DNA from: Hypomesus transpacificus
Taxonomy: Eukaryota > Chordata > Actinopteri > Osmeriformes > Osmeridae
DNA length: 64,000 nucleotides
NCBI RefSeq assembly: GCF_021917145.1
Contig: NC_061074.1
Span: 9,579,521-9,643,520 of the forward strand
Direction: 5' to 3'
A program made the translations under genes and the position numbers. This document shows positions 10,235 through 59,859 of this stretch, piece after piece. Numbering within the stretch: position 1 is the first letter of the stretch; every line of letters starts with the position of its first letter. Under the pieces are notes generated by a model that was not told where the DNA came from, did no database searches, and was given only the letters and a program-made list of their open reading frames with translations.

Positions 10235-12736
10235 ACCCCCCCCTTATGAGCCAGGAAGGAGATGATTATGACGTCGTCCCCAACAGCAAGTTCTGCGTCT
10301 CCAGAACGGCCAACAAGGACAACAGCTCCTCCTACCACATCAATGGGAAGAAGGCCACCTACAAGGAGGTGGGGGCTCTGCTCAGAAGCCACGGCATCGA
10401 CCTGGACCACAACAGGTTCCTCATCCTGCAGGTAGCGTGGGGTTCTCCTCAGCCTCCATCTTATCCCTTTTCCTTTTGTGGCTGTCGCCTGGGCAACCGT
10501 CCAGTTGTCAAACCTGTGGAGACACAGCTCCGCTCCAAGCCTCCTAACACTGCTATAGCAGCGCATCATGGTTTGAAACTATAAGGAAACCGTGCAAACC
10601 ATTTTTTGCTGCTTTAGTATTTGAAGGAATCACAGCATTAGATGGACAAACCTGCAGCTGGGACAGGCCCCTAATGGAGGGCTCCTCTACCTCCTGCAGC
10701 TGGGACAGGCCCCTAATGGAGGGCTCCTCTACCTCCTGCAGCTGGGACAGGCCCCTAGTGGAGGGCTCCTCTACCTCCTGCAGCTGGGACAGGCCCCTAG
10801 TGGAGGGCCCTTCCACCCCCTGCAGCTGGGACAGGCCCCTAGTGGAGGGCCCTTCCACCCCCTGCAGTTGGGACAGGCCCCTAGTGGAGGGCCCTTCCAC
10901 CCCCTGCAGCTGGGACAGGCCCCTAGTGGAGGGCCCTTCTACCCCCGTAGAGGTCTCTGTTCTGGATCCTGTGTTGCCGGGGCTGGAGAGGAGGGGGCGG
11001 GGCCTGCTGTTCCCTCGTCCAGACCAGCACCCCTCTACTGTACTCACTACGCTGTAGCAGCATGTAAATATTGGCGTGTGAGAATGAGCCCAACCCCAAT
11101 ATTGGCAATGCTGCTGCAGTGTGGCGGGCCCAAACCCTTGTCTGAGCATCCATACGCTCACCGGAACACCCTTCACACACACAGCTCGTATACAAGTACA
11201 TCTAAGGATGTTAGCTTCAGTCACATAACAGCGCCAGTTTCTTTAAAATGTGGTGTGTGTGCAGGGCGAGGTGGAGCAGATCGCCATGATGAAGCCGCGA
11301 GGCCAGACAGAGCATGACGAGGGCATGCTGGAGTACCTGGAGGACATCATCGGCTCTGGACGCCTCAAGGAGCCAATCAACATCCTCAGCCGCCGACTGG
11401 AGCACCTCAACGAGCAGAGAGGAGAGAAGGTGAGGAGGGGTGAGGCTTGTGGAGGAGAGGAGGGGTGAGGCTTGTGGAGGAGAGGAGGGGTGAGGGAGAG
11501 GAGTGGAGGGGTGATGGAGAGGAGTGGAGGGGTGATGGAGAGGAGTGGAGGGGTGATGGAGAGGAGTGGAGGGGTGATGGAGAGGAGTGGAGGGGTGATG
11601 GAGAGGAGTGGAGGGGTGATGGAGAGGAGTGGAGGGGTGATGGAGAGGAGTGGAGGGGTGATGGAGGGGTGATGGAGAGGAGTGGAGGGGTGAGGGAGAG
11701 GAGTGGAGTGGAGGGGTGAGGGAGAGGAGGGGTGAGGGAGAGGAGAGGAGGGGTGAGGGAGAGGAGTGGAGGGGTGAGGGAGAGGAGTGGAGGGAGAGGA
11801 GTGGAGGGAGAGGAGTGGACGGAGAGGAGTGGAGGGAGAGGAGTGGACGGGTGAGGGAGAGGAGTGGAGGGGTGAGGGAGAGAAGTGGAGGGGTGAGGGA
11901 GAGAAGTGGAGGGGTGAGGGAGAGGAGTGGAGGGGTGAGGGAGAGGAGTGGAGGGGTGAGGGAGAGGAGTGGAGGGGTGTGGTTGTGAAGGAGGGGACAC
12001 CTGCCTCCTAAGAAGCCACTGAATAATCTCCCCCACGCCCCCCATCTCCTCATACCAGCTGAACAGGGTGAAGATGGTGGAGAAGGAGAAGGGTGCCCTG
12101 GAAGCAGAGAAGAACACTGCTGTGGAGTTCCTCACCCTAGAGAACGACATCTTCAAGCAGAAGAGCCAGCTCTGCCAGTACTACGTGTGAGTACACCAGC
12201 AGCTGTGGAGTGTGTGTGACAGAGTAGCGGTCTGTACTGTGTGTGTATAGCCATGGACTGGACTGGTCGGTACATTCCTTGTGTGACACGTTGGTAAAGG
12301 TGGATGGCGTTGGGCTGTGTGTGTACGTCTGCTCAGCCATGACTTCCAGAAGAAGGTGAAGGTGAAGGAGGAGGAGAAGCAGAGGATCCTGGAGGAGAGC
12401 AAGGACCTCACAGAGAGGAGCAGCCACATCGCCACGGAGACGGAGAAGAAGAACCAGGATCTGAAGAACGTGGAGAAGTACGTCTGGAGGGAGGGGCTGC
12501 TGGAGGGAGGGAGGGGCTGCTGCAGGGAGGGAGGGGCTGCTGCAGGGAGGGGGGGGCTGCTGGAGGGAGGGGGGGCAGCTGGAGGGAGGGGGGGGGCTGC
12601 TGGAGGGGGGGAGGGGCTGCTGGAGGGAGGGAGGGGCTGCTGCAGGGAGGGAGGGGCTGCTGGAGGGAGGGGGGGGCTGCTGGAGGGAGGGAGGGGCTGC
12701 TGGAGGGAGGGAGGGCCACACCAGGGATCTTTATCT

Positions 12737-12805
<69 letters not shown>

Positions 12806-15800
12806 TCCGCCAGGAAGCAGAACAAGCTGACCAGGTACATGGAGGGTCAGAAGGAGAAGTTCACCCAGCTGGACCTGCAGGATGTGGAGGTGCGAGAGAA
12901 ACTCAAACACACCAAGAGCAAGACCAAGAAGCTGCTCAAACTGCTGGAGAAGAACAAGGACATGGTGTGTTGTGTGTGTGTGTCCCAGACCTGTGTGTGT
13001 GTGTGTGTCCCAGACCTGTGTGTGTCTGATGAGTGGTGCTGTCCTGCAGGTGGAGGAGCAGCGCGGCGTGCTGGTCAGCAGTGAGAACACCATCTCAGAG
13101 GCATGCGCCCAGCGGGAGCAGCTGGAGGGCAGGAAGGTGGAGGAGGAGGAGAAGCTGGGGGCTGTGATGGAGAGCCTGAAGGGGGAGACGAGCGGCCTGC
13201 AGCTGGAGAAGCAGGCCAGTGAGAAGCAGCTGATGGTGCTGAGCAGGGAGGTGAACGACACGCGCTCTCGTATGGAGGTGGCCCAGTCAGAGATGGACAT
13301 CTACCTGAGCCGCCACAACGCCGCCCTGACACAGCTCAGCTCAGCCAGGACGGCCCTCTGCACCACCTCCAGCACCCTGCAGGAGAGACGCACCGCGGTC
13401 CACGTCCTGCAGGACAAGATCCCCCAGTGTGAGAAGGAGCTGAAGAAGGTAGGGAGGGAGGGGGGAGTCTCTAAGACTTCTATATGACTGTCTGCAGCTG
13501 TCTTTTACAGGCTGATTCCAGGGTGTCTGTAGTTTGTTTAGTTGTCTTAACATGTCTGTGTCTGTGTGTCTCCCTGTGTGTCCCAGGACGAGGCAGAGCT
13601 CCAGCGGCTGCAGAAGGAGGATGTGGGTGTCAGGGAGGAGATGAAGGGGCTGAGGCAGAAGGTGGAGGAGGCCAAGTCTGCCCTGTCCTCAAGCCACAGC
13701 CGGGGCAAGGTGCTGGAGGCCCTCATGCAGCAGAAGAGGAGCGGGAACATCCAGGGCATCTACGGACGGCTGGTAACACACACACACACAGAAACACACA
13801 CTGTCAGACACACACACACACTGTCAGACACACACACACTGTCAGACACACACACACTCTCAGACACACACACACTCTCAGACACACACAGAGGAGGAGA
13901 GACAGTGTGGTCAGGTGACCGTGCAGCGCTGTGTGTGCAGGGGGACTTGGGGGCGATCGATGGGAAGTACGATGTGGCCATCTCCTCCTGCTGTGGGGCT
14001 CTGGACCACATCCTGGTGGACACCATCGACACGGCCCAGAGGTGCGTCATGTACCTGAAGACAAACAACATCGGCTTCGCCACCTTCATCGGCCTGGACA
14101 AGGTGAGGGGCAGCTAGCTTAGCCAGCCTAGCCTGGCAGTGTTGCTGTGTTAGCTTAGCCAGCCTAGCCTGGCAGTGCTGCTGTGTTAGCTTAACCAGCC
14201 TAGCCTGGCAGTGTTAGCTTAGCAGAGCTTACCCAAGTTGGGGTTAGTTAGCAGCAGCTAACGGTAAACACGCAGGCTACACTCTGTGTCAGTAGTCTGA
14301 GGATGATGATCTGGCTCAATTTGAGTTCTGCCACAGTGCCCCTCCAGCCTGGCTCTGCCTGGCTACACTGCTGTGTGTCTGCTCTGGAGCCTGCTGGTAC
14401 ATACCATGTCCATTTAACAAACGCCATCTAAAGCAGCCTTTCTCAACCCTGGTCCTCAGGGACTCCCTGCCCTGCATGTTCTAGATGTTTCCCTGCTCCA
14501 ACCCACCTGATTTTAATGAATGGGTCGTTATCTAGCTCAGCAAAAGCCTGGTAGTGACCCTTCACCCCGCAAGAGAGGGTCCCTGAAAAACAGGGTTGAG
14601 AAACAAAGAACAAAAGAGGGAAGGGGGGGGGGGTTTCAAACCTGTTACGTCTTCATCTACAGCCCCTCCGTCCCATCTTCTCAGATGAAGGTGTGGGAGC
14701 AGAAGATGTCTCCCATCTCCCCCCCCGAGGGCGCGGCCCGCCTGTTCGACATGGTGCGCGTGCAGGACGAGAGCACACGGCCGGCCTTCTACTTCGCCCT
14801 GCGGGACACGCTGGTGGCCCGGGACCTGGAGGAGGCCACACGCCTGGCCTTCCAGAGGGACAAGCGCTGGAGGGTCGTCACCCTGCAGGGACAGATCATA
14901 GAGATGGCTGGTGGGTGGGGGGGGTAGATGGGTGGAGGGCTGATGGCTGAGTGTGTGGAGGGCTGATGTGTGGAGGGCTGATGGCTGGAGGGCTGATGGC
15001 TGAGTGTGTGGAGGGCTGATGTGTGGAGGGCTGATGGCTGATGTGTGGAGGGCTGATGTGTGGAGGGCTGATGGCTGGATGTGTGGAGGGCTGATGGCTG
15101 GATGTGTGGAGGGCTGATGGCTGAATGTGTGGAGGGCTGATGGCTGAGTGTGTGGAGGGCTGATGGCTGGATGTGTGGAAGGCTGGATGTGTGGAGGGCT
15201 GATGGCTGAATGTGTGGAGGGCTGATGGCTGATGTGTGGAGGGCTGATGGCTGAGTGTGTGGAGGGCTGATGGCTGATGTGTGGAGGGCTGATGGCTGAT
15301 GTGTGGAGGGCTGATGGCTGAGTGTGTGGAGGGCTGATGGCTGATGTGTGGAGGGCTGATGGCTGAGTGTGTGGAGGGCTGATGGCTGATGTGTGGAGGG
15401 CTGATGGCTGGATGTGTGGAGGGCTGATGGCTGGATGTGTGGAGGGCTGATGGCTGAGTGTGTGGAGGGCTGATGTGTGGAGGGCTGATGGCTGGGTGTG
15501 TGGAGGGCTGATGGCTGGATGTGTGGAGGGCTGATGGCTGGATGTGTGGAGGGCTGATGGCTGAGTGTGTGGAGGGCTGATGTGTGGAGGGCTGATGGCT
15601 GGGTGTGTGGAGGGCTGATGGCTGGATGTGTGGAGGGCTGATGGCTGAGTGTGTGGAGGGCTGATGGCTGGATGTGTGGAGGGCTGGATGTGTGGAGGGC
15701 TGATGGCTGGATGTGTGGAGGGCTGATGGCTGGATGTGTGGAGGGCTGGATGTGTGGAGGGCTGATGGCTGAATGTGTGGAGGGCTGATGGCTGAATGTG

Positions 15801-17782
15801 TGGAGGGCTGATGGCTGATGTGTGGAGGGCTGATGGCTGAGTGTGTGGAGGGCTGATGGCTGGGTGTGTGGAGGGCTGATGGCTGGGTGTGTGGAGGGCT
15901 GATGTGTGGAGGGCTGATGGCTGGGTGTGTGGAGGGCTGATGGCTGGGTGTGTGGAGGGCTGATGGCTGGATGTGTGGAGGGCTGATGGCTGGGTGTGTG
16001 GAGGGCTGATGTGTGGAGGGCTGATGGCTGGGTGTGTGGAGGGCTGATGGCTGGGTGTGTGGAGGGCTGATGGCTGGATGTGTGGAGGGCTGATGGCTGG
16101 GTGTGTGGAGGGCTGATGTGTGGAGGGCTGATGTGTGGAGGGCTGATGTGTGGAGGGCTGATGGCTGGGTGTGTGGAGGGCTGATGTGTGGAGGGCTGAT
16201 GTGTGGAGGGCTGATGGCTGGGTGTGTGGAGGGCTGATGGCTGGGTGTGTGGAGGGCTGATGGCTGGGTGTGTGGAGGGCTGATGGCTGGATGTGTGGAG
16301 GGCTGATGGCTGGGTGTGTGGAGGGCTGATGGCTGGATGTGTGTTGGAGCCAGCAGCTGGGAGGTGCTGACCATGTCTCTGCTTGTCAGGCACCATGACG
16401 GGAGGAGGAGGAGGAGTGATGAAGGGAAGGATGGGCTCCTCCATCACCTCTGAGGTGTCCCAGGTGGAGGTGAGGGCTCACACACACACACACACACACA
16501 CGCCTTATCTGATCAGACACACACGCACGCCTTATCTGATCAGACACACACGCACGCCTTATCTGATCAGACACACACGCACGCCTTATCTGATCAGACA
16601 CACACGCACGCCTTATCTGATCAGACACACACACACACACACACGCCTTATCTGATCAGACACACACACACACACACACGCCTTATCTGATCAGACACAC
16701 ACCTTTACAAAATAAACAACAACAAACAAATCATTTCTGCATATGTAGGTAGCAACACTAGTGCTAAATAACTATTTAACTGGTCGGCCCCATAATGCTG
16801 GGTAAGTAGCTAGCTCCTGAGACAAAAAGACTAAGACATGTCCGTAGGTACCTAGCGAAAAGTAGCCTCAACTTTCCTAGACCTTTAGCTACGGCACTAA
16901 TGCTGAAGGCTCGCTGATATAGCTGTTGGTCTTACTAGAACGGCGTAGGTATGCATCGTTGCTGACGTTCTGACTGTGTAATAATAATAATACATTTTAT
17001 TTAAAGGCGCCTTTCTCGGTACTCAAGGACACCATACAGGATATAAAATACATTTGAAAACAGCTAAACTAAGAATACAACAACATTAAAAACAACAGAA
17101 GCAGGCAGTGTGTATGTGAGAAAGAGTCTTGAGTGACAGAGAGACGGAGGGAGAGCAGGGAAAGGAAATGTAGCTGAATGAATACGCTGCGTGTTTTAAA
17201 TATCGTTAAAAAAGAATAATAACAAAAGGCAATATGTGGCGGCCGGTGTTGATTCTGTGGCGCACCGCCACACACGAGTCTGTGTGGGAAACACTGCACC
17301 TTCTCTCACACCCCCTCTCTTTCAGCTGGGGCAGATGGAGAGTCAGCTGCAGCGTCAGGTGGAGCGTGGGCGGGGCTGCCAAGAGAGGAGGCTGCAGCTG
17401 GAGGAGAACATCCACACCCTCACCCAGCAGCTCCGAGACATGAGGAACACCCTGGAGAAGTACACCCTCAGCCTCCCGGTACACACACACACAGCCTCCC
17501 TGTACACACACACACACACAGCCTCCCTGTACACACACACACACACAGCCTCCCTGTACACACACACACACAGCCTCCCTGTACACACACACACACAGCC
17601 TCCCTGTACACACACACACACAGCCTCCCGGTACACACACACACAGCCTCCCGGTACACACACACACACAGCCTCCCTGTACACACACACACACAGCCTC
17701 CCTGTACACACACACACACAGCCTCCCGGTACACACACACACACAGCCTCCCGGTACACACACACACACACACAGCCTCCCG

Positions 17783-17824
<42 letters not shown>

Positions 17825-20800
17825 CCTCCCTGTACACACACACACACCCTCGGTCTGCCGGGACACACACACACACACACACACCCTTGGTCTGCCGGGA
17901 CACACACACATGCAGGTACGCACTCCTTCCAGAGCCCAAAGTCAATGTCTGCTGTGTGTGTAGAGCCTGGCAGAGCAGGAGGTCAACCTGAAGACTCAGA
18001 TTAAGGAGCTGGAGGCCAAGGAGGTGGCAGCTGCTCCAGACAAGAAGCACCAGACACAGCTGCAGAAGACCCTGGACGCCTTCAAGAAAGGTACACACAC
18101 TACACACACACTATACACACACTATACACACTATACACACACTACACACACACTATACACACACTATACACACTATACACACACTACACACACACTATAC
18201 ACACACTACACACACACTATACACACACTACACACACACTATACACACACTACACACACACTATACACACACTACACACACACTACACACACACTATACA
18301 CACACTATACACACACTACACACACACTATACACACACTATACACACTATACACACACTATACACACACTACACACACACTATACACACACTACACACAC
18401 ACTATACACACACTACACACACACTACACACACACTACACACACACTATACACACACTATACACACACTATACACACACACTATACACACACTACACACA
18501 CACTACACACACACTATACACACACTACACACACCATACACACACCATACACACACATTATACACACACTATACACACACTACACACACACTATACACAC
18601 ACTATACACACACTACACACACACCATACACACACACTACACACACACTACACACACACTATACACACACTATACACACACCATACACACACACACCATA
18701 CACACACACCACACACACACTACACACACACTATACACACACACTATACACACACTACACACACACTATACACACACACTATACACACACACCATACACA
18801 CACACCATACACACACTACACACACACTACACACACACCATACACACACTACACACACACTATACACACACTACACACACCATACACACACTATAGACAC
18901 ACTACACACACTATACACACACTACACACACACCATACACACACACCATACACACACTACACACACACCATACACACACACTATACACACACTACACACA
19001 CACTACACACACACTACACACACACTACACACACACCATACACACACACCATACACACACTACACACACACCATACACACACACTATACACACACTATAC
19101 ACACACTACACACACACTATACACACACCATACACACACTACACACACACCATACACACACTATACACACACTACACACACACTATACACACACCATACA
19201 CACACTATACACACACCATACACACACACACCATACACACACTACACACACACACTATACACACACTATACACACACCATACACACACTATACACACACT
19301 ACACACACACACTATACACACACCATACACACACTACACACACACTATACACACACCATACACACACTATACACACACTACACACACACTATACACACAC
19401 TACACACACCATACACACACACCAGTGTTTCCCACAGATTAGAAAGCAATTTGTGGCGTGGGGGAGGGGGTGTTCATAAACATATATATATTAGGGTTAT
19501 GTTGGATGCTATCCTCCTCTCCTACTCTTTGTGGTTGAAGCCTGAAAATATTGTAAACTGCATGCAGGTAGCAACGCTAGTGCTAAATAACTATTTGGCT
19601 GGTTGGCTCCATGACGACGGGTAAGTCGGGCTCGTGAGACAGCTCACCTAAAGAACGAAGGGGAACCCACTTGTCTAGCAGATTAAGACATGTTCGTAGG
19701 TACCTAAGGAAAAGTAACCTCTACTTTCCTAGACTTGGCTATGTTACTAATGCTGAAGGCATGCTGATATTGCATAGCGTCGTTGCTAACGTGTGTTGGC
19801 GTTGTGACTGTATGTGAGAGAGACGCTTGAGTGACAGAGAGACGGAGGGAGAGCAGGGAAAAGAAATGCAGCTGGACGAATAAGATGCGTGTTTTAAATA
19901 TCGTAAAAAAATAACGAAACGCAATATGTGGCGGCCGGTGTTGATTCTGTGGCGCACCGCCACAAATGAGTCAATGTGTGGGAAACACTGCACACACACT
20001 ATATACATACAGATCCACACTCGTGGAGAAGATGAAACTGATTTCCTACCTCTTGTCCTCCCCTTCCCCTCCCAGAATACGAGGCAGCCTCCAGCAGGGC
20101 GGGGAAGGTGGAGGCTGAGGTGCAGCGCCTGCACAGGCTGATCCTGGACATCACCAGCCACAAGCTGAAGGCCCAGCAGGACCAGCTGGACCAGGTGGTC
20201 AGAGAGCTGGACGCCTGCTCCTCCACCATCACCAAGGCCCAGGTGGCCATCAAGACTGCAGGGCGGTGAGCGCACACACACACACAGGATGGAGGAGGAG
20301 GTGGCCATCAAGACTGCACACGCATAGCTCTCACACGGTCCCCTGTGTTCAGGAGCCTGCACACACACAGCTCTCACACGGTCCCCTGTGTTCAGGAGCC
20401 TGCACACACACAGCTCTCACACGGTCCCCTGTGTTCAGGAGCCTGCACACACACAGCTCTCACACGGTCCCCTGTGTTCAGGACCCTGCTGAAGGCGGAG
20501 GAGGCGGTGCAGCGAGGGCAGAGGGAGCAGGAGGAGGGGGAGAAGCTCATCGCTGAGCTCACAGTGCAGCTGAAGACTCTGGAGGAACAGGCTGGAGACA
20601 TCATGAAGTCCTGCCAGGATGCAGAGGTCACACACATACACACACCAGTGTTTCAAGGAGTGACTTAAGAGAAAACACAACGGTGCTAACCAACATTCCC
20701 ATCAGAGTGAGGTGCTGACCTTGTCCTCCGGGCCTGCAGGGGGCGCTACCAGAGGTGCAGCAGCAGTACGTGAGCGTGCTGGAGGAGATCAAGGCCCTGC

Positions 20801-25056: not shown

Positions 25057-25647
25057 TTAGGTGAGGGTCTTGTAGAAGGAAGTGAGTTGCTGGTAGCTGT
25101 TCTTCCCCAGGGTGGAGAGGGCCTCACCCCACCTCCCCACCACCTCCCCCAGCCCCCCACACACCACCTCCCCCAGGCTCCAGCCCCAGCCTCCCAGCCC
25201 CCAGCCCAGCCTCTGGGCCGTGTGGCTCAGCAGGGAGGAGGCCAGAGCCCCCAGGTCCCCCCACACGGCCCCCAGCAGCAGCAGCAGGACCAGCAGGACC
25301 AGGGGGACCAGGCGAGGCTGGACACGCTCCCCGATCTCACGTACCCGACCCTGGGAGGGACAGCTGGCCTCCACCCCTGAGCCTGGCTCCGGGGCCTCGG
25401 GGGGGGCGCAGCAGGACACCTGGGGCACCGGCCCCCCCTCTAGATCCCCCACTGTCACAGCCGCCCAATGCTGGGGCAGGTAGTCTGCAGCGCGGGGGGC
25501 GATGGAGAGGGGGGTGGCGAAGGGCAGGGGGGAGATGAGCAGGGCCTCGACCCTCTCCCTGAAGTCGTGTACCTTCTGCAGAAAGGAGAGGGGCGACTCC
25601 TCCTGCTGCAGCCTGGAGCCCTGAGACACCAGGTCCAGATGCTCCTC

Positions 25648-25687
<40 letters not shown>

Positions 25688-28600
25688 AGGGTTAACCAGC
25701 CCTCTACACACACACACACGCACTCAGGGTTAACCAGCCCTCTACACACACACACACACACTCAGGGTTAACCAGCCCTCTACACACACACACACTCAGG
25801 GTTAACCAGCCCTCTACACACACACACACTCAGGGTTAACCAGCCCTCTACACACACACACACACACACTCAGGGTTAACCAGCCCTCTACACACACACA
25901 CACACACTCAGGGTTAACCAGCCCTCTACACACACACACACACTCAGGGTTAACCAGCCCTCTACACACACACACACACACTCAGGGTTAACCAGCCCTC
26001 TACACACACACACACACTCAGGGTTAACCAGCCCTCTACACACACACACACACTCAGGGTTAACCAGCCCTCTACACACACACACACACACTCAGGGTTA
26101 ACCAGCCCTCTACACACACACACACACACTCAGGGTTAACCAGCCCTCTACACACACCCACACACACTCAGGGTTAACCACGCCCTCTACACACACACAC
26201 ACACTCAGGGTTAACCAGCCCTCTACACACACACACACACTCAGGGTTAACCAGCCCTCTACACACACACACACAGTCAGAGACACACACATCCACCCAG
26301 AGGGACCGCTCCATAGCGACTACAGTAGGAATGTCATTTGCATTTGTACAGGTGTATTCGTGCACGTCGGGCTGGCCCTTGCAGCGGAGCGACAGTTTAC
26401 TGGCCGCTCTGTCCATTCGCACACCTCACAGTTGTGTATTGATCAGACAAGAAAACACGATTATCAACTCGATTACTATTGATCAAAACAGAACAAGGGT
26501 TCGGCTGTATCCTACTTGAAACATACTATTGAGAACATATTTGTTGACATGACACGGTGTTACTGTACTCTACACGGTGTTACTGTACTCTACATGGTGT
26601 TACTATACTCTACACGGTGTTAATGTACTCTCCACGGTGTTACTGTACTCTACATGGTGTTACTGTACTCTACACGGTGTTACTGTACTCTACATGGTGT
26701 TACTGTACTCTACACGGTGTTACTGTACTCTACACGGCGTTACTATACTCTACACAGTGTTCCGGGAGTACAACAGCACTTAAGAGATTGGCTAACTTGT
26801 CTACATGCTCTTATTGCTCTCCCCTTTGGGACTTATTTGGTTTCACAATGTATGCTTCATGTTTGGCTACCTGCAATGTTTGGGGCTATCTCGTTGTTAT
26901 GATTAGTGCCTGTGCACTTTTGCAAAACTCTCTCTTGGAAGTCGCATTGGATAAAAGCATCTTCTAAATACATAAATGTAAATGTTACTAACACGGTATT
27001 ACTAACACAGTGTTACTAACGGTGTGTCTGCAGTAGGAGCACATGGTCTTTCAGAGGGGGGGGCATCATGCCCTGCCACGGAGCTATACCCATCCAGGAG
27101 CCAATTAGCTTGGCCCCTGGAGGCAGCGTGTACCTGCATCTCTTTCAGCCGGTGGATGAGGGGGTCGAAGGTCAAGGAGATCTCCAGGCTGGCGCTGTCC
27201 AGGGCTCCCAGGAAGGCCTCTCTCTTCTGGGCCAGGATCAGTTCCAGCCCCTGAAAGAACTGCTCCACCACCTGGGCATCCTGCCTCACCATGGCCTCAC
27301 AGTCCTGCTTCTCCTTCTGCAGCTGTTCCCCCAGCTCACACACCTGGGGGAGGGGGGGAGGAGGAGGTGCGGGGTGGGAGGGAGGGGGGGTAGGTAGGTA
27401 GGTAGGAGAGGTGGGGATGGGTGTTTGGGTGAAGAGGCAGAGGCTTGACCAATCCACAAGCTGAGCGACAGGAAGAGGAAAGGTTGGAAAAAAAAATGTG
27501 AGGTGAGTTGAGGTGTTACCTGGGCCCAGCGCTGGTCAGCCAGCCTGGCCAGCAATCCGGCCGGGGCCTGCCTCTCCCTGAGGAAGGCAGCCTGCAGGTC
27601 GTCGATGGCGTGGCCCTGGTGCTTCCCCACGGTCAGACACAGCCCACACACCAGCCTCAGGTCCTGCACACAGTACACGTTCAGGGGCTGTCCGGGGTGG
27701 TCCGCACAGCAGGGAGCCCTGGGCTGGTGGTGGTCCTTCTGGAACTGAGGGATGAGGAGGGGGGAGAGAGAGGGAGGAAGAATGAGATAGGAAGAGAAGA
27801 AACAAGAGCGAGGGGAAGAGAGGGAACAAGAGAGAGAAGGCGCAGGAGAGAGAACGTGATGCAGACACAGTGAGGAAGACCCGAGGCTCAACACTGATGA
27901 GGACCCACCAGGTCTCACCTTCTCTAGGATGGAACCAGCTCTCACCTTCTCTATGAAGGAACCAGGTCTCACCTTCCCTAGGATGGAACCAGGTCTCACC
28001 TTCTCTAGGATGGAACCAGGTCTCACCTTCTCTAGGATGGAACCAGCTCTCACCTTCTCTATGAAGGAACCAGGTCTCACCTTCCCTAGGATGGAACCAG
28101 GTCTCACCTTCTCTAGGATGGAACCAGGTCTCACCTTCTCTATGAAGGAACCAGGTCTCACCTTCTCTATGATGGAACCAGGTCTCACCTTCTCTATGAA
28201 GGAACCAGGTCTCACCTTCTCTAGGATGGAACCAGCTCTCACCTTCTCTATGAAGGAACCAGGTCTCACCTTCCCTAGGATGGAACCAGGTCTCACCTTC
28301 TCTAGGATGGAACCAGGTCTCACCTTCTCTAGGATGGAACCAGCTCTCACCTTCTCTATGAAGGAACCAGGTCTCACCTTCCCTAGGATGGAACCAGGTC
28401 TCACCTTCTCTAGGATGGAACCAGGTCTCACCTTCTCTATGAAGGAACCAGGTCTCACCTTCTCTATGATGGAACCAGGTCTCACCTTCTCTATGATGGA
28501 ACCAGGTCTCACCTTCTCTATGATGGAACCAGGTCTCACCTTCCCTAGGATGGAACCAGGTCTCACCTTCTCTATGAAGGAACCAGGTCTCACCTTCCCT

Positions 28601-30792
28601 AGGATGGAACCAGGTCTCACCTTCTCTAGGATGGAACCAGGTCTCACCTTCTCTAGGATGGAACCAGCTCTCACCTTCTCTATGAAGGAACCAGGTCTCA
28701 CCTTCCCTAGGATGGAACCAGGTCTCACCTTCTCTAGGATGGAACCAGGTCTCACCTTCTCTATGAAGGAACCAGGTCTCACCTTCTCTATGATGGAACC
28801 AGGTCTCACCTTCTCTATGATGGAACCAGGTCTCACCTTCTCTATGATGGAACCAGGTCTCACCTTCTCTATGAAGGAACCAGGTCTCACCTTCCCTAGG
28901 ATGGAACCAGGTCTCACCTTCTCTAGGATGGAACCAGGTCTCACCTTCTCTAGGATGGAACCAGCTCTCACCTTCTCTATGAAGGAACCAGGTCTCACCT
29001 TCCCTAGGATGGAACCAGGTCTCACCTTCTCTAGGATGGAACCAGGTCTCACCTTCTCTATGAAGGAACCAGGTCTCACCTTCTCTATGATGGAACCAGG
29101 TCTCACCTTCTCTATGAAGGAACCAGGTCTCACCTTCTCTAGGATGGAACCAGCTCTCACCTTCTCTATGAAGGAACCAGGTCTCACCTTCCCTAGGATG
29201 GAACCAGGTCTCACCTTCTCTAGGATGGAACCAGGTCTCACCTTCTCTAGGATGGAACCAGCTCTCACCTTCTCTATGAAGGAACCAGGTCTCACCTTCC
29301 CTAGGATGGAACCAGGTCTCACCTTCTCTAGGATGGAACCAGGTCTCACCTTCTCTATGAAGGAACCAGGTCTCAACTTCCCTATGATGGAACCAGGTCT
29401 CACCTTCTCTAGGATGGAACCAGGTCTCACCTTCTCTAGGATGGAACCAGCTCTCACCTTCTCTATGAAGGAACCAGGTCTCACCTTCCCTAGGATGGAA
29501 CCAGGTCTCACCTTCTCTAGGATGGAACCAGGTCTCACCTTCTCTATGAAGGAACCAGGTCTCACCTTCTCTATGATGGAACCAGGTCTCACCTTCTCTA
29601 TGATGGAACCAGGTCTCACCTTCTCTATGATGGAACCAGGTCTCACCTTCTCTATGAAGGAACCAGGTCTCACCTTCCCTAGGATGGAACCAGGTCTCAC
29701 CTTCTCTAGGATGGAACCAGGTCTCACCTTCTCTAGGATGGAACCAGCTCTCACCTTCTCTATGAAGGAACCAGGTCTCACCTTCCCTAGGATGGAACCA
29801 GGTCTCACCTTCTCTAGGATGGAACCAGGTCTCACCTTCTCTATGAAGGAACCAGGTCTCACCTTCTCTATGATGGAACCAGGTCTCACCTTCTCTATGA
29901 AGGAACCAGGTCTCACCTTCTCTAGGATGGAACCAGCTCTCACCTTCTCTATGAAGGAACCAGGTCTCACCTTCCCTAGGATGGAACCAGGTCTCACCTT
30001 CTCTAGGATGGAACCAGGTCTCACCTTCTCTAGGATGGAACCAGCTCTCACCTTCTCTATGAAGGAACCAGGTCTCACCTTCCCTAGGATGGAACCAGGT
30101 CTCACCTTCTCTAGGATGGAACCAGGTCTCACCTTCTCTATGAAGGAACCAGGTCTCACCTTCTCTATGATGGAACCAGGTCTCACCTTCTCTATGATGG
30201 AACCAGGTCTCACCTTCTCTATGATGGAACCAGGTCTCACCTTCTCTATGATGGAACCAGGTCTCACCTTCCCTAGGATGGAACCAGGTCTCACCTTCTC
30301 TATGAAGGAACCAGGTCTCACCTTCTCTATGATGGAACCAGGTCTCACCTTCTCTATGAAGGAACCAGGTCTCACCTTCTCTATGAAGGAACCAGGTCTC
30401 ACCTTCTCTATGATGGAACCAGGTCTCACCTTCTCTATGATGGAACCAGGTCTCACCTTCTCTATGAAGGAACCAGGTCTCACCTTCTCTATGATGGAAC
30501 CAGGTCTCACCTTCTCTATGAAGGAACCAGGTCTCACCTTCTCTATGATGGCGCGCAGAGACACGTTGGCGGGCAGGGCGTCCACACCACTGGGCGGTAG
30601 CTCCACCACGCTTCGGCAGTTGGGGCACTTGAGCGGCAGGCGCAGCGGGCGCCAGATGGAGATGTTGGAGGAGAGCTGGAGGACGTTGTCCAGGCAGGAT
30701 CTGCAGAAGGTGTGTGAGCAGGGCAAGACGCGCGGGTCAGAAAACAGGCCATAGCACACGGAGCAGGACAGGTCCTCCTCTAGACTGTCCAT
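25057..30792 (-). CDS. TRIM59: TRIM59, RING/B-box E3 ubiquitin ligase with C-terminal membrane anchor
   Basis: Coding exons on minus: 30792-30538, 27744-27520, 27343-27134, 25647-25057; 426 residues (human 403). RING: C10, C13, C25, H27, C30, C33, C56, C59. B-box 2: C98, H101, C110, C118, C121, H127, H130. Coiled coil about 161-260; hydrophobic anchor LVPLVLLVLLLLLGAVWG about 343-360. Human TRIM59 coding sequence is, as I recall, in one exon, so the three coding introns are notable. The first coding intron holds a 97-copy array of the splice junction; retaining it leaves the frame open. The second exon could begin at TTCCAG (chosen, like human YQQ) or six bases later. Confidence 0.93.
25648..26280. 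repeat. CTCAGGGTTAACCAGCCCTCTA plus CA minisatellite
   Basis: About 17 copies of CTCAGGGTTAACCAGCCCTC separated by CA runs of varied length, ending at the acceptor of the last TRIM59 exon (25648). Confidence 0.95.
26560..26765 (+). repeat. 20-bp minisatellite
   Basis: Ten copies of GTGTTACTGTACTCTACACG with single-base variants, in the last TRIM59 intron. Confidence 0.95.
26765..27000 (+). mobile_element. Dispersed fish repeat with SINE-like tail
   Basis: Ends with GTCGCATTGGATAAAAGCAT and a CTAAATACATAAATGTAAAT tail, the form shared by V-SINE-type and related fish retroposons. Confidence 0.6.
27905..30545 (-). repeat. 27-bp array made of the TRIM59 exon end and splice donor
   Basis: On minus each unit carries GAGAAG-GTGAGACCTGGTTCC. 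The donor motif GTCTCAC (plus) occurs at 30531 and at 27912, 2,619 bp apart, exactly 97 units. Variants: GGGAAG for GAGAAG, GAGAGC for GAGACC, and one copy near 29374 with TT in place of the donor GT. No stop codon occurs in the sense frame. Confidence 0.97.
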
Positions 30793-30888
30793 GGTTGCTC
30801 GGGGGGGAGGAGCTCCTCCAGATGGGTGTAGTCCTGAGGTGGCAAAAGGTGCTCCCCGACCTCCTGTCCAGGGGAGAGGAAGCAGCTT
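30538..30888 (-). other. TRIM59: TRIM59 RING exon including 5' UTR
   Basis: Two candidate 3' splice sites upstream of the ATG: TCCCTTTACAG (exon from 30888) and GCCACCTCAG (exon from 30833). The first has the better pyrimidine tract because the 21-bp satellite runs into it. Confidence 0.6.
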
Positions 30889-30892
30889 CTGT

Positions 30893-33800
30893 AAAGGGAG
30901 AAGGGAACAGGGGGAGGAGGGAAGGGAACAGGGGGAGGAGGGAAGGGAACAGGGGGAGGAGGGAAGGGAACAGGGGGAGGAGGGAAGGGAACAGGGGGAG
31001 GAGGGAAGGGAACAGGGGGAGGGGAGAAGGGAACAGGGGGAGGAGGGAAGGGAACAGGGGGAGGGGAGAAGGGAACAGGGGGAGGAGGGAAGGGAACAGG
31101 GGGAGGAGGGAAGGGAACAGGGGGAGGGGAGAAGGGAACAGGGGGAGGAGGGAAGGGAACAGGGGGAGGGGAGAAGGGAACAGGGGGAGGAGGGAAGGGA
31201 ACAGGGGGAGGAGGGAAGGGAACAGGGGGAGGAGGGAAGGGAACAGGGGGAGGGGAGAAGGGAACAGGGGGAGGAGGGAAGGGAACAGGGGGAGGGGAGA
31301 AGGGAACAGGGGGAGGAGGGAAGGGAACAGGGGGAGGAGGGAAGGGAACAGGGGGAGGGGAGAAGGGAACAGGGGGAGGAGGGAAGGGAACAGGGGGAGG
31401 GGAGAAGGGAACAGGGGGAGGAGGGAAGGGAACAGGGGGAGGAGGGAAGGGAACAGGGGGAGGGGAGAAGGGAACAGGGGGAGGGGAGAAGGGAACAGGG
31501 GGAGGGGAGAAGGGAACAGGGGGAGGGGAGAAGGGAACAGGGGGAGGGGAGAAGGGAACAGGGGGAGGGGAGAAGGGAACAGGGGGAGGAGGGAAGGGAA
31601 CAGGGGGAGGAGGGAAGGGAACAGGGGGAGGGGAGAAGGGAACAGGGGGAGGAGGGAAGGGAACAGGGGGAGGGGAGAAGGGAAGAGGGGGAGGAGGGAA
31701 GGGAACAGGGGGAGGGGGGAAGGGAACAGGGGGAGGAGGGAAGGGAACAGGGGGAGGAGGGAAGGGAACAGGGGGAGGAGGGAAGGGAACAGGGGGAGGG
31801 GAGAAGGGAACAGGGGGAGGAGGGAAGGGAACAGGGGGAGGAGGGAAGGGAACAGGGGGAGGGGAGAAGGGAACAGGGGGAGGGGAGAAGGGAACAGGGG
31901 GAGGGGAGAAGGGAACAGGGGGAGGGGAGAAGGGAACAGGGGGAGGAGGGAAGGGAACAGGGGGAGGGGGGAAGGGAACAGGGGGAGGAGGGAAGGGAAC
32001 AGGGGGAGGAGGGAAGGGAACAGGGGGAGGAGGGAAGGGAACAGGGGGAGGAGGGAAGGGAACAGGGGGAGGGGAGAAGGGAACAGGGGGAGGAGGGAAG
32101 GGAACAGGGGGAGGAGGGAAGGGAACAGGGGGAGGGGAGAAGGGAACAGGGGGAGGGGAGAAGGGAACAGGGGGAGGAGGGAAGGGAACAGGGGGAGGAG
32201 GGAAGGGAACAGGGGGAGGGGAGAAGGGAACAGGGGGAGGAGGGAAGGGAACAGGGGGAGGGGAGAAGGGAACAGGGGGAGGAGGGAAGGGAACAGGGGG
32301 AGGAGGGAAGGGAACAGGGGGAGGGGAGAGGAGAACAGGGGGAGGAGGGAAGGGAACAGGGGGAGGAGGGAAGGGAACAGGGGGAGGAGGGAAGGGAACA
32401 GGGGGAGGAGGGAAGGGAACAGGGGGAGGGGAGAAGGGAACAGGGGGAGGAGGGAAGGGAACAGGGGGAGGAGGGAAGGGAACAGGGGGAGGAGGGAAGG
32501 GAACAGGGGGAGGAGGGAAGGGAACAGGGGGAGGAGGGAAGGGAACAGGGGGAGGGGAGAAGGGAACAGGGGGAGGAGGGAAGGGAACAGGGGGAGGGGA
32601 GAAGGGAACAGGGGGAGGAGGGAAGGGAACAGGGGGAGGAGGGAAGGGAACAGGGGGAGGGGAGAAGGGAACAGGGGGAGGAGGGAAGGGAACAGGGGGA
32701 GGGGAGAAGGGAACAGGGGGAGGAGGGAAGGGAACAGGGGGAGGAGGGAAGGGAACAGGGGGAGGAGGGAAGGGAACAGGGGGAGGGGAGAAGGGAACAG
32801 GGGGAGGAGGGAAGGGAACAGGGGGAGGGGAGAAGGGAACAGGGGGAGGAGGGAAGGGAACAGGGGGAGGAGGGAAGGGAACAGGGGGAGGGGAGAAGGG
32901 AACAGGGGGAGGAGGGAAGGGAACAGGGGGAGGGGAGAAGGGAACAGGGGGAGGAGGGAAGGGAACAGGGGGAGGAGGGAAGGGAACAGGGGGAGGGGAG
33001 AAGGGAACAGGGGGAGGGGAGAAGGGAACAGGGGGAGGGGAGAAGGGAACAGGGGGAGGGGAGAAGGGAACAGGGGGAGGAGGGAAGGGAACAGGGGGAG
33101 GAGGGAAGGGAACAGGGGGAGGGGAGAAGGGAACAGGGGGAGGAGGGAAGGGAACAGGGGGAGGGGAGAAGGGAACAGGGGGAGGAGGGAAGGGAACAGG
33201 GGGAGGGGGGAAGGGAACAGGGGGAGGAGGGAAGGGAACAGGGGGAGGAGGGAAGGGAACAGGGGGAGGGGAGAAGGGAACAGGGGGAGGGGAGAAGGGA
33301 ACAGGGGGAGGGGAGAAGGGAACAGGGGGAGGAGGGAAGGGAACAGGGGGAGGAGGGAAGGGAACAGGGGGAGGGGAGAAGGGAACAGGGGGAGGAGGGA
33401 AGGGAACAGGGGGAGGGGAGAAGGGAACAGGGGGAGGAGGGAAGGGAACAGGGGGAGGGGGGAAGGGAACAGGGGGAGGAGGGAAGGGAACAGGGGGAGG
33501 AGGGAAGGGAACAGGGGGAGGGGAGAAGGGAACAGGGGGAGGGGAGAAGGGAACAGGGGGAGGGGAGAAGGGAACAGGGGGAGGAGGGAAGGGAACAGGG
33601 GGAGGAGGGAAGGGAACAGGGGGAGGGGAGAAGGGAACAGGGGGAGGAGGGAAGGGAACAGGGGGAGGGGAGAAGGGAACAGGGGGAGGAGGGAAGGGAA
33701 CAGGGGGAGGGGGGAAGGGAACAGGGGGAGGAGGGAAGGGAACAGGGGGAGGAGGGAAGGGAACAGGGGGAGGGGAGAAGGGAACAGGGGGAGGAGGGAA

Positions 33801-36800
33801 GGGAACAGGGGGAGGAGGGAAGGGAACAGGGGGAGGGGAGAAGGGAACAGGGGGAGGAGGGAAGGGAACAGGGGGAGGGGAGAAGGGAACAGGGGGAGGA
33901 GGGAAGGGAACAGGGGGAGGGGGGAAGGGAACAGGGGGAGGAGGGAAGGGAACAGGGGGAGGAGGGAAGGGAACAGGGGGAGGAGGGAAGGGAACAGGGG
34001 GAGGAGGGAAGGGAACAGGGGGAGGGGAGAAGGGAACAGGGGGAGGAGGGAAGGGAACAGGGGGAGGAGGGAAGGGAACAGGGGGAGGGGAGAAGGGAAC
34101 AGGGGGAGGGGAGAAGGGAACAGGGGGAGGAGGGAAGGGAACAGGGGGAGGAGGGAAGGGAACAGGGGGAGGGGAGAAGGGAACAGGGGGAGGAGGGAAG
34201 GGAACAGGGGGAGGGGAGAAGGGAACAGGGGGAGGAGGGAAGGGAACAGGGGGAGGAGGGAAGGGAACAGGGGGAGGGGAGAGGAGAACAGGGGGAGGAG
34301 GGAAGGGAACAGGGGGAGGAGGGAAGGGAACAGGGGGAGGAGGGAAGGGAACAGGGGGAGGAGGGAAGGGAACAGGGGGAGGGGAGAAGGGAACAGGGGG
34401 AGGAGGGAAGGGAACAGGGGGAGGAGGGAAGGGAACAGGGGGAGGAGGGAAGGGAACAGGGGGAGGAGGGAAGGGAACAGGGGGAGGGGAGAAGGGAACA
34501 GGGGGAGGAGGGAAGGGAACAGGGGGAGGAGGAGAAGGGAACAGGGGGAGGAGGGAAGGGAACAGGGGGAGGAGGGAAGGGAACAGGGGGAGGGGAGAAG
34601 GGAACAGGGGGAGGAGGGAAGGGAACAGGGGGAGGGGAGAAGGGAACAGGGGGAGGAGGGAAGGGAACAGGGGGAGGAGGGAAGGGAACAGGGGGAGGAG
34701 GGAAGGGAACAGGGGGAGGAGGAGAAGGGAACAGGGGGAGGAGGGAAGGGAACAGGGGGAGGGGAGAAGGGAACAGGGGGAGGAGGGAAGGGAACAGGGG
34801 GAGGAGGGAAGGGAACAGGGGGAGGGGAGAAGGGAACAGGGGGAGGAGGGAAGGGAACAGGGGGAGGGGAGAAGGGAACAGGGGGAGGAGGGAAGGGAAC
34901 AGGGGGAGGAGGGAAGGGAACAGGGGGAGGGGAGAAGGGAACAGGGGGAGGAGGGAAGGGAACAGGGGGAGGAGGGAAGGGAACAGGGGGAGGAGGGAAG
35001 GGAACAGGGGGAGGAGGGAAGGGAACAGGGGGAGGGGAGAAGGGAACAGGGGGAGGAGGGAAGGGAACAGGGGGAGGGGAGAAGGGAACAGGGGGAGGAG
35101 GGAAGGGAACAGGGGGAGGAGGGAAGGGAACAGGGGGAGGGGAGAAGGGAACAGGGGGAGGAGGGAAGGGAACAGGGGGAGGGGAGAAGGGAACAGGGGG
35201 AGGAGGGAAGGGAACAGGGGGAGGGGGAAGGGAACAGGGGGAGGAGGGAAGGGAACAGGGGGAGGAGGGAAGGGAACAGGGGGAGGGGAGAAGGGAACAG
35301 GGGGAGGGGAGAAGGGAACAGGGGGAGGGGAGAAGGGAACAGGGGGAGGAGGGAAGGGAACAGGGGGAGGAGGGAAGGGAACAGGGGGAGGGGAGAAGGG
35401 AACAGGGGGAGGGGAGAAGGGAACAGGGGGAGGGGAGAAGGGAACAGGGGGAGGAGGGAAGGGAACAGGGGGAGGAGGGAAGGGAACAGGGGGAGGGGAG
35501 AAGGGAACAGGGGGAGGAGGGAAGGGAACAGGGGGAGGGGAGAAGGGAACAGGGGGAGGAGGGAAGGGAACAGGGGGAGGGGGGAAGGGAACAGGGGGAG
35601 GAGGGAAGGGAACAGGGGGAGGAGGGAAGGGAACAGGGGGGAGGGGGGAGAAGGGAACAGGGGGAGGAGGGAAGGGAACAGGGGGAGGAGGGAAGGGAAC
35701 AGGGGGAGGGGAGAAGGGAACAGGGGGAGGAGGGAAGGGAACAGGGGGAGGGGAGAAGGGAACAGGGGGAGGAGGGAAGGGAACAGGGGGAGGAGGAAGG
35801 GAACAGGGGGAGAGGGAAGGGAACAGGGAACAGGGGGAGGAGGGAAGGGAACAGGGGGAGGAGGGAAGGGAACAGGGGGAGGAGGGAAGGGAACAGGGGA
35901 GGAGGGGAGAAGGGAACAGGGGGAGGAGGGAAGGGAACAGGGGGAGGAGGGAAGGGAACAGGGGGAGGGGAGAAGGGAACAGGGGGAGGAGGGAAGGGAA
36001 CAGGGGGAGGAGGGAAGGGAACAGGGGGAGGGGAGAAGGGAACAGGGGGAGGAGGGAAGGGAACAGGGGGAGGGGAGAAGGGAACAGGGGGAGGAGGGAA
36101 GGGAACAGGGGGAGGAGGGAAGGGAACAGGGGGAGGAGGGAAGGGAACAGGGGGAGGAGGGAAGGGAACAGGGGGAGGGGAGAAGGGAACAGGGGGAGGA
36201 GGGAAGGGAACAGGGGGAGGGGAGAAGGGAACAGGGGGAGGAGGGAAGGGAACAGGGGGAGGGGAGAAGGGAACAGGGGGAGGAGGGAAGGGAACAGGGG
36301 GAGGGGAGAAGGGAACAGGGGGAGGAGGGAAGGGAACAGGGGGAGGGGAGAAGGGAACAGGGGGAGGAGGGAAGGGAACAGGGGGAGGGGAGAAGGGAAC
36401 AGGGGGAGGAGGGAAGGGAACAGGGGGAGGAGGGAAGGGAACAGGGGGAGGAGGGAAGGGAACAGGGGGAGGGGAAGGGAACAGGGGGAGGAGGGAAGGG
36501 AACAGGGGGAGGAGGGAAGGGAACAGGGGGAGGGGGAAGGGAACAGGGGGAGGAGGAGAAGGGAACAGGGGGAGGAGGGAAGGGAACAGGGGGAGGGGAG
36601 AAGGGAACAGGGGGAAGGGAAGGGAACAGGGGGAGGAGGGAAGGGAACAGGGGGAGGGGAGAAGGGAACAGGGGGAGGAGGGAAGGGAACAGGGGGAGGA
36701 GGGAAGGGAACAGGGGGAGGAGGGAGGGAACAGGGGGAAGAAGGGAACAGGGGAGGAGGGAAGGGAACAGGGGGAGGAGGGAAGGGAACAGGGGGAGGAG

Positions 36801-38845
36801 GGAAGGGAACAGGGGGAGGAGGGAAGGGAACAGGGGGAGGAGGGAAGGGAACAGGGGGAGGGGAGAAGGGAACAGGGGGAGGAGGGAAGGGAACAGGGGG
36901 AGGGGAGAAGGGAACAGGGGGAGGAGGGAAGGGAACAGGGGGAGGAGGGAAGGGAACAGGGGGAGGGGAGAAGGGAACAGGGGGAGGAGGGAAGGGAACA
37001 GGGGGAGGGGAGAAGGGAACAGGGGGAGGAGGGAAGGGAACAGGGGGAGGAGGGAAGGGAACAGGGGGAGGGGAGAAGGGAACAGGGGGAGGAGGGAAGG
37101 GAACAGGGGGAGGGGAGAAGGGAACAGGGGGAGGAGGGAAGGGAACAGGGGGAGGAGGGAAGGGAACAGGGGGAGGGGAGAAGGGAACAGGGGGAGGAGG
37201 GAAGGGAACAGGGGGAGGAGGGAAGGGAACAGGGGGAGGAGGGAAGGGAACAGGGGGAGGAGGGAAGGGAACAGGGGGAGGGGAGAAGGGAACAGGGGGA
37301 GGAGGGAAGGGAACAGGGGGAGGGGAGAAGGGAACAGGGGGAGGAGGGAAGGGAACAGGGGGAGGAGGGAAGGGAACAGGGGGAGGGGAGAAGGGAACAG
37401 GGGGAGGAGGGAAGGGAACAGGGGGAGGAGGGAAGGGAACAGGGGGAGGGGAGAAGGGAACAGGGGGAGGAGGGAAGGGAACAGGGGGAGGGGAGAAGGG
37501 AACAGGGGGAGGAGGGAAGGGAACAGGGGGAGGAGGGAAGGGAACAGGGGGAGGGGAGAAGGGAACAGGGGGAGGAGGGAAGGGAACAGGGGGAGGAGGG
37601 AAGGGAACAGGGGGAGGAGGGAAGGGAACAGGGGGAGGGGAGAAGGGAACAGGGGGAGGAGGGAAGGGAACAGGGGGAGGGGAGAAGGGAACAGGGGGAG
37701 GAGGGAAGGGAACAGGGGGAGGAGGGAAGGGAACAGGGGGAGGGGGGGAAGGGAACAGGGGGAGGAGGGAAGGGAACAGGGGGAGGGGAGAAGGGAACAG
37801 GGGGAGGAGGGAAGGGAACAGGGGGAGGAGGGAAGGGAACAGGGGGAGGGGAGAAGGGAACAGGGGGAGGGGAGAAGGGAACAGGGGGAGGGGAGAAGGG
37901 AACAGGGGGAGGAGGGAAGGGAACAGGGGGAGGAGGGAAGGGAACAGGGGGAGGGGAGAAGGGAACAGGGGGAGGAGGGAAGGGAACAGGGGGAGGGGAG
38001 AAGGGAACAGGGGGAGGAGGGAAGGGAACAGGGGGAGGAGGGAAGGGAACAGGGGGAGGGGGGGAAGGGAACAGGGGGAGGAGGGAAGGGAACAGGGGGA
38101 GGGGAGAAGGGAACAGGGGGAGGAGGGAAGGGAACAGGGGGAGGAGGGAAGGGAACAGGGGGAGGGGAGAAGGGAACAGGGGGAGGGGAGAAGGGAACAG
38201 GGGGAGGGGAGAAGGGAACAGGGGGAGGAGGGAAGGGAACAGGGGGAGGGGAGAAGGGAACAGGGGGAGGAGGGAAGGGAACAGGGGGAGGGGGGAAGGG
38301 AACAGGGGGAGGGGAGAAGGGAACAGGGGGAGGAGGGAAGGGAACAGGGGGAGGGGAGAAGGGAACAGGGGGAGGGGAGAAGGGAACAGGGGGAGGAGGG
38401 AAGGGAACAGGGGGAAGGGGGAAGGGAACAGGGGGAGGGGAGAAGGGAACAGGGGGAGGAGGGAAGGGAACAGGGGGAGGGGAGAAGGGAACAGGGGGAG
38501 GAGGGAAGGGAACAGGGGGAGGGGAGAAGGGAACAGGGGGAGGAGGGAAGGGAACAGGGGGAGGGGAGAAGGGAACAGGGGGAGGAGGGAAGGGAACAGG
38601 GGGAGGGGGGAAGGGAACAGGGGGAGGGGAGAAGGGAACAGGGGGAGGAGGGAAGGGAACAGGGGGAGGGGGGAAGGGAACAGGGGGAGGGGAGAAGGGA
38701 ACAGGGGGAGGAGGGAAGGGAACAGGGGGAGGGGGGGAAGGGAACAGGGGGAGGGGGGAAGGGAACAGGGGGAGGGGAGAAGGGAACAGGGGGAGGAGGG
38801 AAGGGAACAGGGGGAGGGGGGAAGGGAACGGGGGGGGGGAGGTGG
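30893..38845. repeat. 7.9-kb purine/pyrimidine 21-bp satellite
   Basis: About 375 copies of GGGAACAGGGGGAGGNGGGA-type 21-bp units in two main forms, GAGGAGGGAA and GAGGGGAGAA, arranged in higher-order patterns. The TRIM59 template/sense asymmetry is complete: sense RNA is pyrimidine-rich. Four frames of more than 2,600 codons are artefacts of a stop-free period divisible by three. Confidence 0.98.
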
Positions 38846-42041: not shown

Positions 42042-49023
<6,982 letters not shown>

Positions 49024-53644: not shown

Positions 53645-54120
53645 CTAGACCCAGCAGGGGGTGTACTACTGGTCAGGATGCCTTGGACCAGCAGGGGGTG
53701 TACTACTGGTCAGGGGGCCCTGGACCAGCAGGGGGTGTACTACTGGTCAGGAGGCCCTGGACCAACAGGGGGTGTACTACTGGTCAGGGGGCCCTGGACC
53801 AGCAGGGGGTGTACTACTGGTCAGGAGGCCCTGGACCAACAGGGGGTGTACTACTGGTCAGGGGGCCCTGGACCAGCAGGGGGTGTACTACTGGTCAGGG
53901 GGCCCTGGACCAGCAGGGGGTGTACTACTGGTCAGGGGGCCCTGGACCAGCAGGGGGTGTACTACTGGTCAGGATGCCTTGGACCAGCAGGGGGTGTACT
54001 ACTGGTCACGGGGCCCTGGACCAGCAGGGGGTGTACTACTGGTCACGGGGCCCTGGACCAGCAGGGGGTGTACTACTGGTCACGGGGCCCTGGACCAGCA
54101 GGGGGTGTACTACTGGTCAG
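53645..54120. repeat. 37-bp minisatellite that includes the PPM1L stop codon
   Basis: About 13 copies of a 37-bp unit with GACCAGCAGGGGGTGTACTA and CTGGTCAGGGGGCC. The terminal copy supplies the last codons and TAG of PPM1L at 54110-54112. Confidence 0.96.
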
Positions 54121-59854: not shown

Positions 59855-59859
59855 CTGGA

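Follow-up and report, generated by a model that had tools for sequence, protein, structure and literature searches.

The human gene IFI6 carries a tandem array that starts near an exon end and comprises 26 copies of a 12-nt unit, lengthening the product in in-frame steps of four residues; the donors used are just the first few units of the longer array. According to one report, IFI6 repeat units serve as splice donors and yield several mRNA species (PMC4526556). In a related process, introns are described as being gained when segments bearing AGGT are duplicated in tandem, one case being a 24-bp exonic AGGT unit repeated in fission yeast genes (PMC4974935). Here we describe an array of 27-bp units, nearly all with a complete 5' splice site, in intron 1 of TRIM59 in the smelt Hypomesus transpacificus. 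It lies in a window of 64,000 nucleotides (contig NC_061074.1, positions 9,579,521 to 9,643,520), to which all coordinates refer. The TRIM59 array is a new, extreme example of the IFI6 kind.

Structure and growth of the TRIM59 array

On the minus strand, the RING exon of TRIM59 ends in ATC ATA GAG AAG at 30538 and the first donor GT lies at 30537. The stretch between this position and 27919 consists of 97 units of 27 bp, or 2619 bp in all; a 98th donor text follows at 27918, and then unique intron sequence. Tandem Repeats Finder (TRF) reports the array at 27907-30551, with period 27, 98.0 copies, 93% matches and a score of 4541. Its edge by TRF is 14 nt inside the RING exon, from which the array runs sense-strand into the intron. 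The donor text AAGGTGAGA, AAG/GTGAGA (the slash marks the splice junction), is present in 97 of 98 cases, and the units thus resemble the donor consensus. The 14-mer AAGGTGAGACCTGG has 85 copies in the window, every one on the minus strand, whereas shuffling predicts 0.01; the 13 donor texts without it are 12 units with GAGAGC and the single unit with TT in place of GT. With respect to recursive splice sites, AG/GT is found in 97 of the 98 donor texts, and the preceding bases (TTCCTTCATAGAGAAG or the ATC form) are only partly pyrimidine.

Five unit types account for 95 of the 97 units (30, 20, 17, 16 and 12 copies), and the remaining two units are private. A block of 27 units (729 bp) is present twice in exact copies, at unit indices 15 and 44, and so is a block of 22 units (594 bp), at indices 11 and 74. 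We take these large exact copies to reflect recent multi-unit exchange, which predicts that copy number differs between individuals; the exact block duplications suggest copy-number polymorphism. Intron 1 without its units would be 174 nt long. We read the array as homogeneous and recently expanded, in other words as a young minisatellite that was seeded where exon meets intron.

The gene carrying the array is a smelt TRIM59. Its four exons join into a protein of 426 amino acids whose RING and B-box domains score above the Pfam cut-offs. Among the matches listed, the closest is an Osmerus eperlanus protein (P0001), with 90% identity over the whole length, and exons 1-3 differ from it at 4 of 230 residues. 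The top named matches, within the best 120 of 469, are TRIM59 proteins from Osmerus, Oncorhynchus, Salvelinus, Centroberyx and Esox. The window also contains exons of SMC4, KPNA4 and PPM1L: SMC4 is tail to tail with TRIM59, and KPNA4 and PPM1L follow. These are the neighbours of TRIM59 in human too, and the gene neighbourhood is conserved. In terms of the protein, the insertion point of the array lies in the linker between the RING domain, which extends until about residue 62, and the B-box, which begins at 95.

The array does not interrupt the reading frame. Its 27-nt unit corresponds to nine codons and is stop-free in the sense frame, and the open reading frame (ORF) from the ATG at 30792 has 1,168 codons. 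Intron 1 is 2793 nt long, a multiple of three, and the retained form is open and in phase into exon 2, with 1091 codons from the ATG through the end of exon 2 and 0 stops. The first-pass annotation, made from the sequence by a model, had named the gene TRIM59 and claimed 98 in-register donor copies at the RING exon end, one of them without its GT, along with the frame-keeping unit, the absence of stops and the length of the ORF. All of this was confirmed, and the +1 position of the exceptional copy, earlier placed near 29374, is exactly 29376.

The 5' end of the RING exon at 30863 corresponds to a predicted 3' splice site, marked by a branch-site-like TTTAC word (A at 30892) and GGACAG/GAGG. 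Farther upstream, a second array makes positions 30900-38835 on the TRIM59 strand an extraordinary pyrimidine-rich run before this splice site, with 7936 nt that contain no A and no AG (4927 C, 2631 T and 378 G). A long branch-site distance across this A-free array was considered and is not needed, given that the TTTAC word and a later AG are found after the array and ahead of the ATG.

Arrays anchored at 5' splice sites

TRF arrays make up 42% of the window, or 40.6% at periods of 9 or more. We compared array edges with 41 introns between placed coding exons (20 in SMC4, 3 in TRIM59, 16 in KPNA4 and 2 in PPM1L), a count that leaves out introns lying before the first placed exons as well as anything else in the window. 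Human proteins served as queries for locating the exons of SMC4, KPNA4 and PPM1L, and we picked junctions by eye from homology and GT. This superseded an automatic table of 39 exon rows, from which 22 exon ends and further stretches were checked by eye while the others kept their automatic coordinates. The placed junctions have GT at 41 of 41 donors and AG at 40 of 41 acceptors, the SMC4 acceptor near 11262 being off by a few bases. Another SMC4 acceptor was set at 10252 in the main anchoring test and at 10255 in the later edge and null tests.

The 5' edge of an array of period 9 or more lies within -30 to +20 of the donor in 20 of the 41 introns. Uniform placement of arrays inside introns, our main null, gives 8.0, and none of 20000 shuffles reaches 20. 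The 3' splice sites have no excess (3 of 41, null 8.0). Allowing all periods raises the donor count to 21 of 41 (null 8.6, 0 of 20000) and the acceptor count to 7 of 41 (null 8.5). A narrower window of 0 to +15 holds edges in 13 of 41 introns, against 2.9 to 3.4 under the null (0 of 20000). By position, there is 1 edge at -40 to -21, 5 at -20 to -1, 13 at 0 to +19 and 2 at +20 to +39; beyond +39, to +399, there are at most 2 per 20-nt bin. The array edge precedes the donor in 6 of 41 introns. Array 3' edges are uneven as well, with a low hump of 9 edges 21 to 60 nt before the acceptor.

Part of the donor excess, though not the whole of it, could stem from selection that keeps arrays away from the branch site and acceptor: the null rises from 9.1, with arrays kept inside the intron, to 13.2, with the last 50 nt closed to arrays, where 5 of 20000 shuffles still reach 20. 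With only the last 25 nt closed, the null is 11.3 and 1 of 20000 reaches 20. Anchored introns number 11 of 20 in SMC4, 6 of 16 in KPNA4, 1 of 3 in TRIM59 and 2 of 2 in PPM1L. Leaving out one gene at a time, with the last 50 nt closed, gives 9 of 21 without SMC4 (null 4.7, 80 of 20000), 14 of 25 without KPNA4 (null 9.2, 24 of 20000), 19 of 38 without TRIM59 (null 12.7, 7 of 20000) and 18 of 39 without PPM1L (null 13.0, 108 of 20000). Frame is not the cause of anchoring, because 8 of the 20 anchored introns have a best-scoring period that 3 divides, about the chance share. Possible causes are that sequence close to the junction is prone to duplication, or that intron starts are of low complexity.

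The TRIM59 array, initially treated as a single case, is thus one of 20 in the window and the extreme of a local donor-anchoring pattern. Our literature search, which most subscription papers lay beyond, found no prior description of donor-anchored arrays named as a class. This local anchoring, seen in one window, is the part of our results that deserves follow-up. If it holds genome-wide, it would name where minisatellites start, and why smelt introns swell without breaking genes. We entertain, tentatively and with more doubt than belief, the wider idea that 5' splice sites in smelts are birthplaces of minisatellites: duplications at the junction would be shielded because a working donor is always left to the exon, the junction itself would perhaps be mutagenic, and long runs of redundant donors, each usable, would accumulate in many genes across the genome in numbers that vary between individuals and tune splicing.

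Other examples of donor-anchored arrays are listed in Table 1. The SMC4 arrays at donor 11430 contain 14 further donor-like GT words with scores of 8.2 or more, and the array over donor 17479 holds the exact exon-end and donor string 6 times, native copy included. In KPNA4, an 87-bp repeat with two copies of exon end and donor is likely a picture of the first duplication step.

Table 1. Coordinates of the TRIM59 features and of other arrays in the window
Feature	Position	Strand	Remarks
97 tandem 27-bp units	27919..30537	-	unit = 15 nt of intron start (GTGAGACCTGGTTCC) + 12 nt of exon end (ATCATAGAGAAG type)
Sole donor text without GT	29374..29379	-	AAG/TTGAGA, +1 at 29376
TRIM59 RING exon	30538..30863	-	coding part 30538-30792, 85 codons, MDSL...LRAIIEK; homology to P0001, 100% over 85 amino acids
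TRIM59 intron 1 remainder	27745..27918	-	174 nt, in phase, stop-free, ends CCCTCAG
TRIM59 coding exon 2	27520..27744	-	B-box
TRIM59 coding exon 3	27134..27343	-	coiled-coil region, assigned by position alone
TRIM59 coding exon 4	25057..25647	-	C-terminal hydrophobic segment and stop
GT-rich array, 38 bp x 16.4	about 25668..26275	-	TAG in each unit; ends 20 nt before TRIM59 intron 3 acceptor
Array upstream of TRIM59 RING exon, 21 bp x 378	30900..38835	-	
SMC4 donor-anchored arrays, 25 x 2.7 then 21 x 24.8	11428..11979	+	start 2 nt before donor 11430
SMC4 junction-spanning array, 25 x 15.3	17462..17847	+	over donor 17479
KPNA4 junction-spanning repeat, 87 x 2.1	44631..44811	-	exon end IHHTDVN/gtgagt twice, donors 44783 and 44696
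KPNA4 short junction-spanning repeat, 17 x 2.6	44360..44404	-	over donor 44391

Further repeats were observed in SMC4 and PPM1L. An SMC4 intron (14903-16343, plus strand) consists almost wholly of a 23/46-bp array. Its unit is similar to the last bases of the exon (GATGGCTG), yet no additional donor word in it reaches a score of 6. At 20240-20330 (plus strand), the exon end GTGGCCATCAAGACTGC before donor 20266 reappears a few dozen bases into the intron. The 43-bp x 4.1 array at 20314-20489 (plus strand), whose unit has an acceptor-like CCTGTGTTCAG/GAGC, ends over the 3' splice site near 20482. In PPM1L, a 37-bp x 12.7 array (53651-54121, minus strand) begins in the last codons, such that the stop codon and the following text are repeated. 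The PPM1L exon at 59537-59857 (minus strand) has a long in-frame expansion rich in EK/RE, absent from the human protein.

Origin, splicing and alternative explanations

Taken as a whole, the explanation that we favour, and consider probable, is that the array is a junction-born minisatellite whose first donor is mostly used, and that it is neither a selected peptide generator nor a sponge for the U1 small nuclear ribonucleoprotein (snRNP). A 27-bp stretch straddling the junction of the RING exon and intron 1 would have been tandemly duplicated in a smelt lineage and would have grown to 98 donor copies through unequal exchange or conversion of multi-unit blocks. Every added unit would rebuild the exon end and donor, so the exon would keep its native donor and growth would be nearly invisible to splicing. 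Use of the exon-proximal donor would mostly give ordinary TRIM59, and in a minority of transcripts one or a few downstream units would be used, each adding 9 residues between RING and B-box. First-donor use with such minor products is our guess, and the minor isoforms are expected because of the analogy with IFI6. The array is probably a harmless, still-growing DNA repeat that splicing copes with.

Some points weigh against this explanation. By a human matrix, the donor 9-mer of the units scores 10.7 bits, versus 7.1 for the exon 2 donor and 4.4 for the exon 3 donor (CAGGTAAGT scores 12.7), and 97 equally strong donors with the same 9-mer could shift use downstream. Many of the homologous proteins are computer predictions, and the Osmerus model may ignore minor isoforms. 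Finally, the predicted local probability that the donor word is unpaired is low for all unit types (means of 0.015 to 0.065) and lowest at the native donor (0.0006), which, if anything, counts against first-donor use. RNA structure that hides or exposes donors was rejected as a factor, the hairpins of three 81-nt pieces being no better than those of shuffled sequences (z of -0.94, 0.21 and -0.43). Predicted folding therefore offers no reason for preferring the first copy.

The first-pass annotation had proposed that the array is a potential generator of length-variable TRIM59. As a functional reading, this would mean that many donors are used and that TRIM59 proteins form a ladder, regulated or variable within populations, with n x 9 residues added between the two domains. 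What stands of this proposal is that donor-bearing units, nearly all with identical strong sites, preserve frame and phase for every n and for full retention, that the insertion falls in an interdomain linker, and that IFI6 is a precedent. There is no sign, however, that a ladder peptide is maintained. The open frame is weak evidence, because the array is open in 3 of 6 frames and because 27-nt tandem arrays (12 nt of exon and 15 nt of intron) simulated at the 41 donors placed in the window are equally open in 87 of the 123 cases that result from reading each donor in all three frames, whatever its true phase. The upstream 21-bp array is also in long open frames, and we rejected the open frame as a signal. 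Moreover, the best-scoring period is not divisible by 3 in 12 of the 20 anchored introns.

The homologs, too, argue against maintenance of the peptide. We assembled 124 proteins, comprising the best 120 of 469 matches to the spliced protein and 4 matches to the retained form. The RING/B-box junction could be parsed in 119 of these, and every one of the 119 has 11-13 residues before the first Cys motif. Among the five that do not, P0058, P0068 and P0094 join normally on reading, P0035 is shorter there and P0124 is not a TRIM59. Not even one repeat unit occurs in the 123 homologs examined. In the Osmerus eperlanus protein, which represents a cluster of 3 member sequences and whose 85 RING-exon residues are identical, LRAIIEK continues with FQKD and no unit. 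All five variable positions of the unit are nonsynonymous (V/L, P/A, F/I, I/L and E/G). Because these sites change residues and the repeat is missing from homologs and from the protein searches described below, we see no sign of selection keeping the 9-residue peptide and rejected it for lack of support. We judge the generator unlikely.

An assembly artefact, in which misassembly inflated the copy number of a short array, seems still less probable to us. Exact duplications of 729-bp and 594-bp blocks could also come from misassembly, and a report on the related Hypomesus nipponensis says that tandem repeats hampered earlier assemblies, for which it also blames amplification of short interspersed elements (SINEs) and 5S sequences (PMC12083275). 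However, the unit types are intermingled in distinct orders, and unrelated units make up many of the other arrays anchored at donors, and hence the kind of array would be real even if its count were off.

We consider it very unlikely, although not quite the least credible proposal, that the intron-proximal donor or retention of the whole intron is common, giving an exitron-like TRIM59 with 873 to 931 extra residues. Intron 1 is in phase and stop-free into exon 2, and where several donors are equal, splicing can prefer the one closest to the acceptor. Yet the exon would reach about 2.9 kb, far above the usual exon size, and no such protein was found: the retained form matched no repeat peptide among 7995 candidates scored, and 30 units had no match at E<=0.01 among 7999. 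The retained form had 4 matches at E<=0.001 (three IFT80 and one unnamed), each covering 6-14% of the query. Least likely of all is a U1 snRNP sponge, as the first-pass annotation suggested, or a local U1 reservoir that would protect the pre-mRNA, for example, from early polyadenylation. The 97 U1-type sites in 2.6 kb are in its favour, but a sponge that draws down the U1 pool is hardly credible by numbers, since one pre-mRNA would face roughly a million U1 particles per nucleus.

The array bears on a long-standing question, namely how a choice is made among many identical splice sites, which is usually studied with two engineered sites. The 97 identical, in-frame, strong donors of TRIM59 constitute a natural test of position alone, namely of which copy is used and whether use decays with distance.

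Comparison with known systems

Exitrons are exonic introns, and TRIM59 intron 1 is like them in being internal, divisible by 3 in length and free of stops. Unlike them, it is mostly repeat rather than conserved coding sequence, and our knowledge of it comes from DNA. Intron gain through AGGT duplication shares with TRIM59 a short tandem duplication that carries AG/GT in a coding gene, but such duplications create new introns, whereas the TRIM59 array amplifies the donor of an existing intron. Hypomesus nipponensis belongs to the same fish family as our smelt, and its genome is likewise rich in tandem repeats, at 14.61% compared with 3.26% in stickleback and 5.83% in Takifugu (PMC12083275); the window described here reaches 40.6% at periods of 9 or more. 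Anchoring of arrays at splice sites is not described for that species in the available portion of the same report (PMC12083275).

IFI6 is the closest known system, and TRIM59 units likewise carry donors. The two differ in the gene, in the 27-nt unit and in the number of donor texts, which is 98 in TRIM59, nearly all identical and complete. Donor use has been reported in RNA for IFI6, whereas the TRIM59 array is known here from DNA sequence alone. Unlike the IFI6 array, that of TRIM59 sits among many arrays that are anchored at donors.

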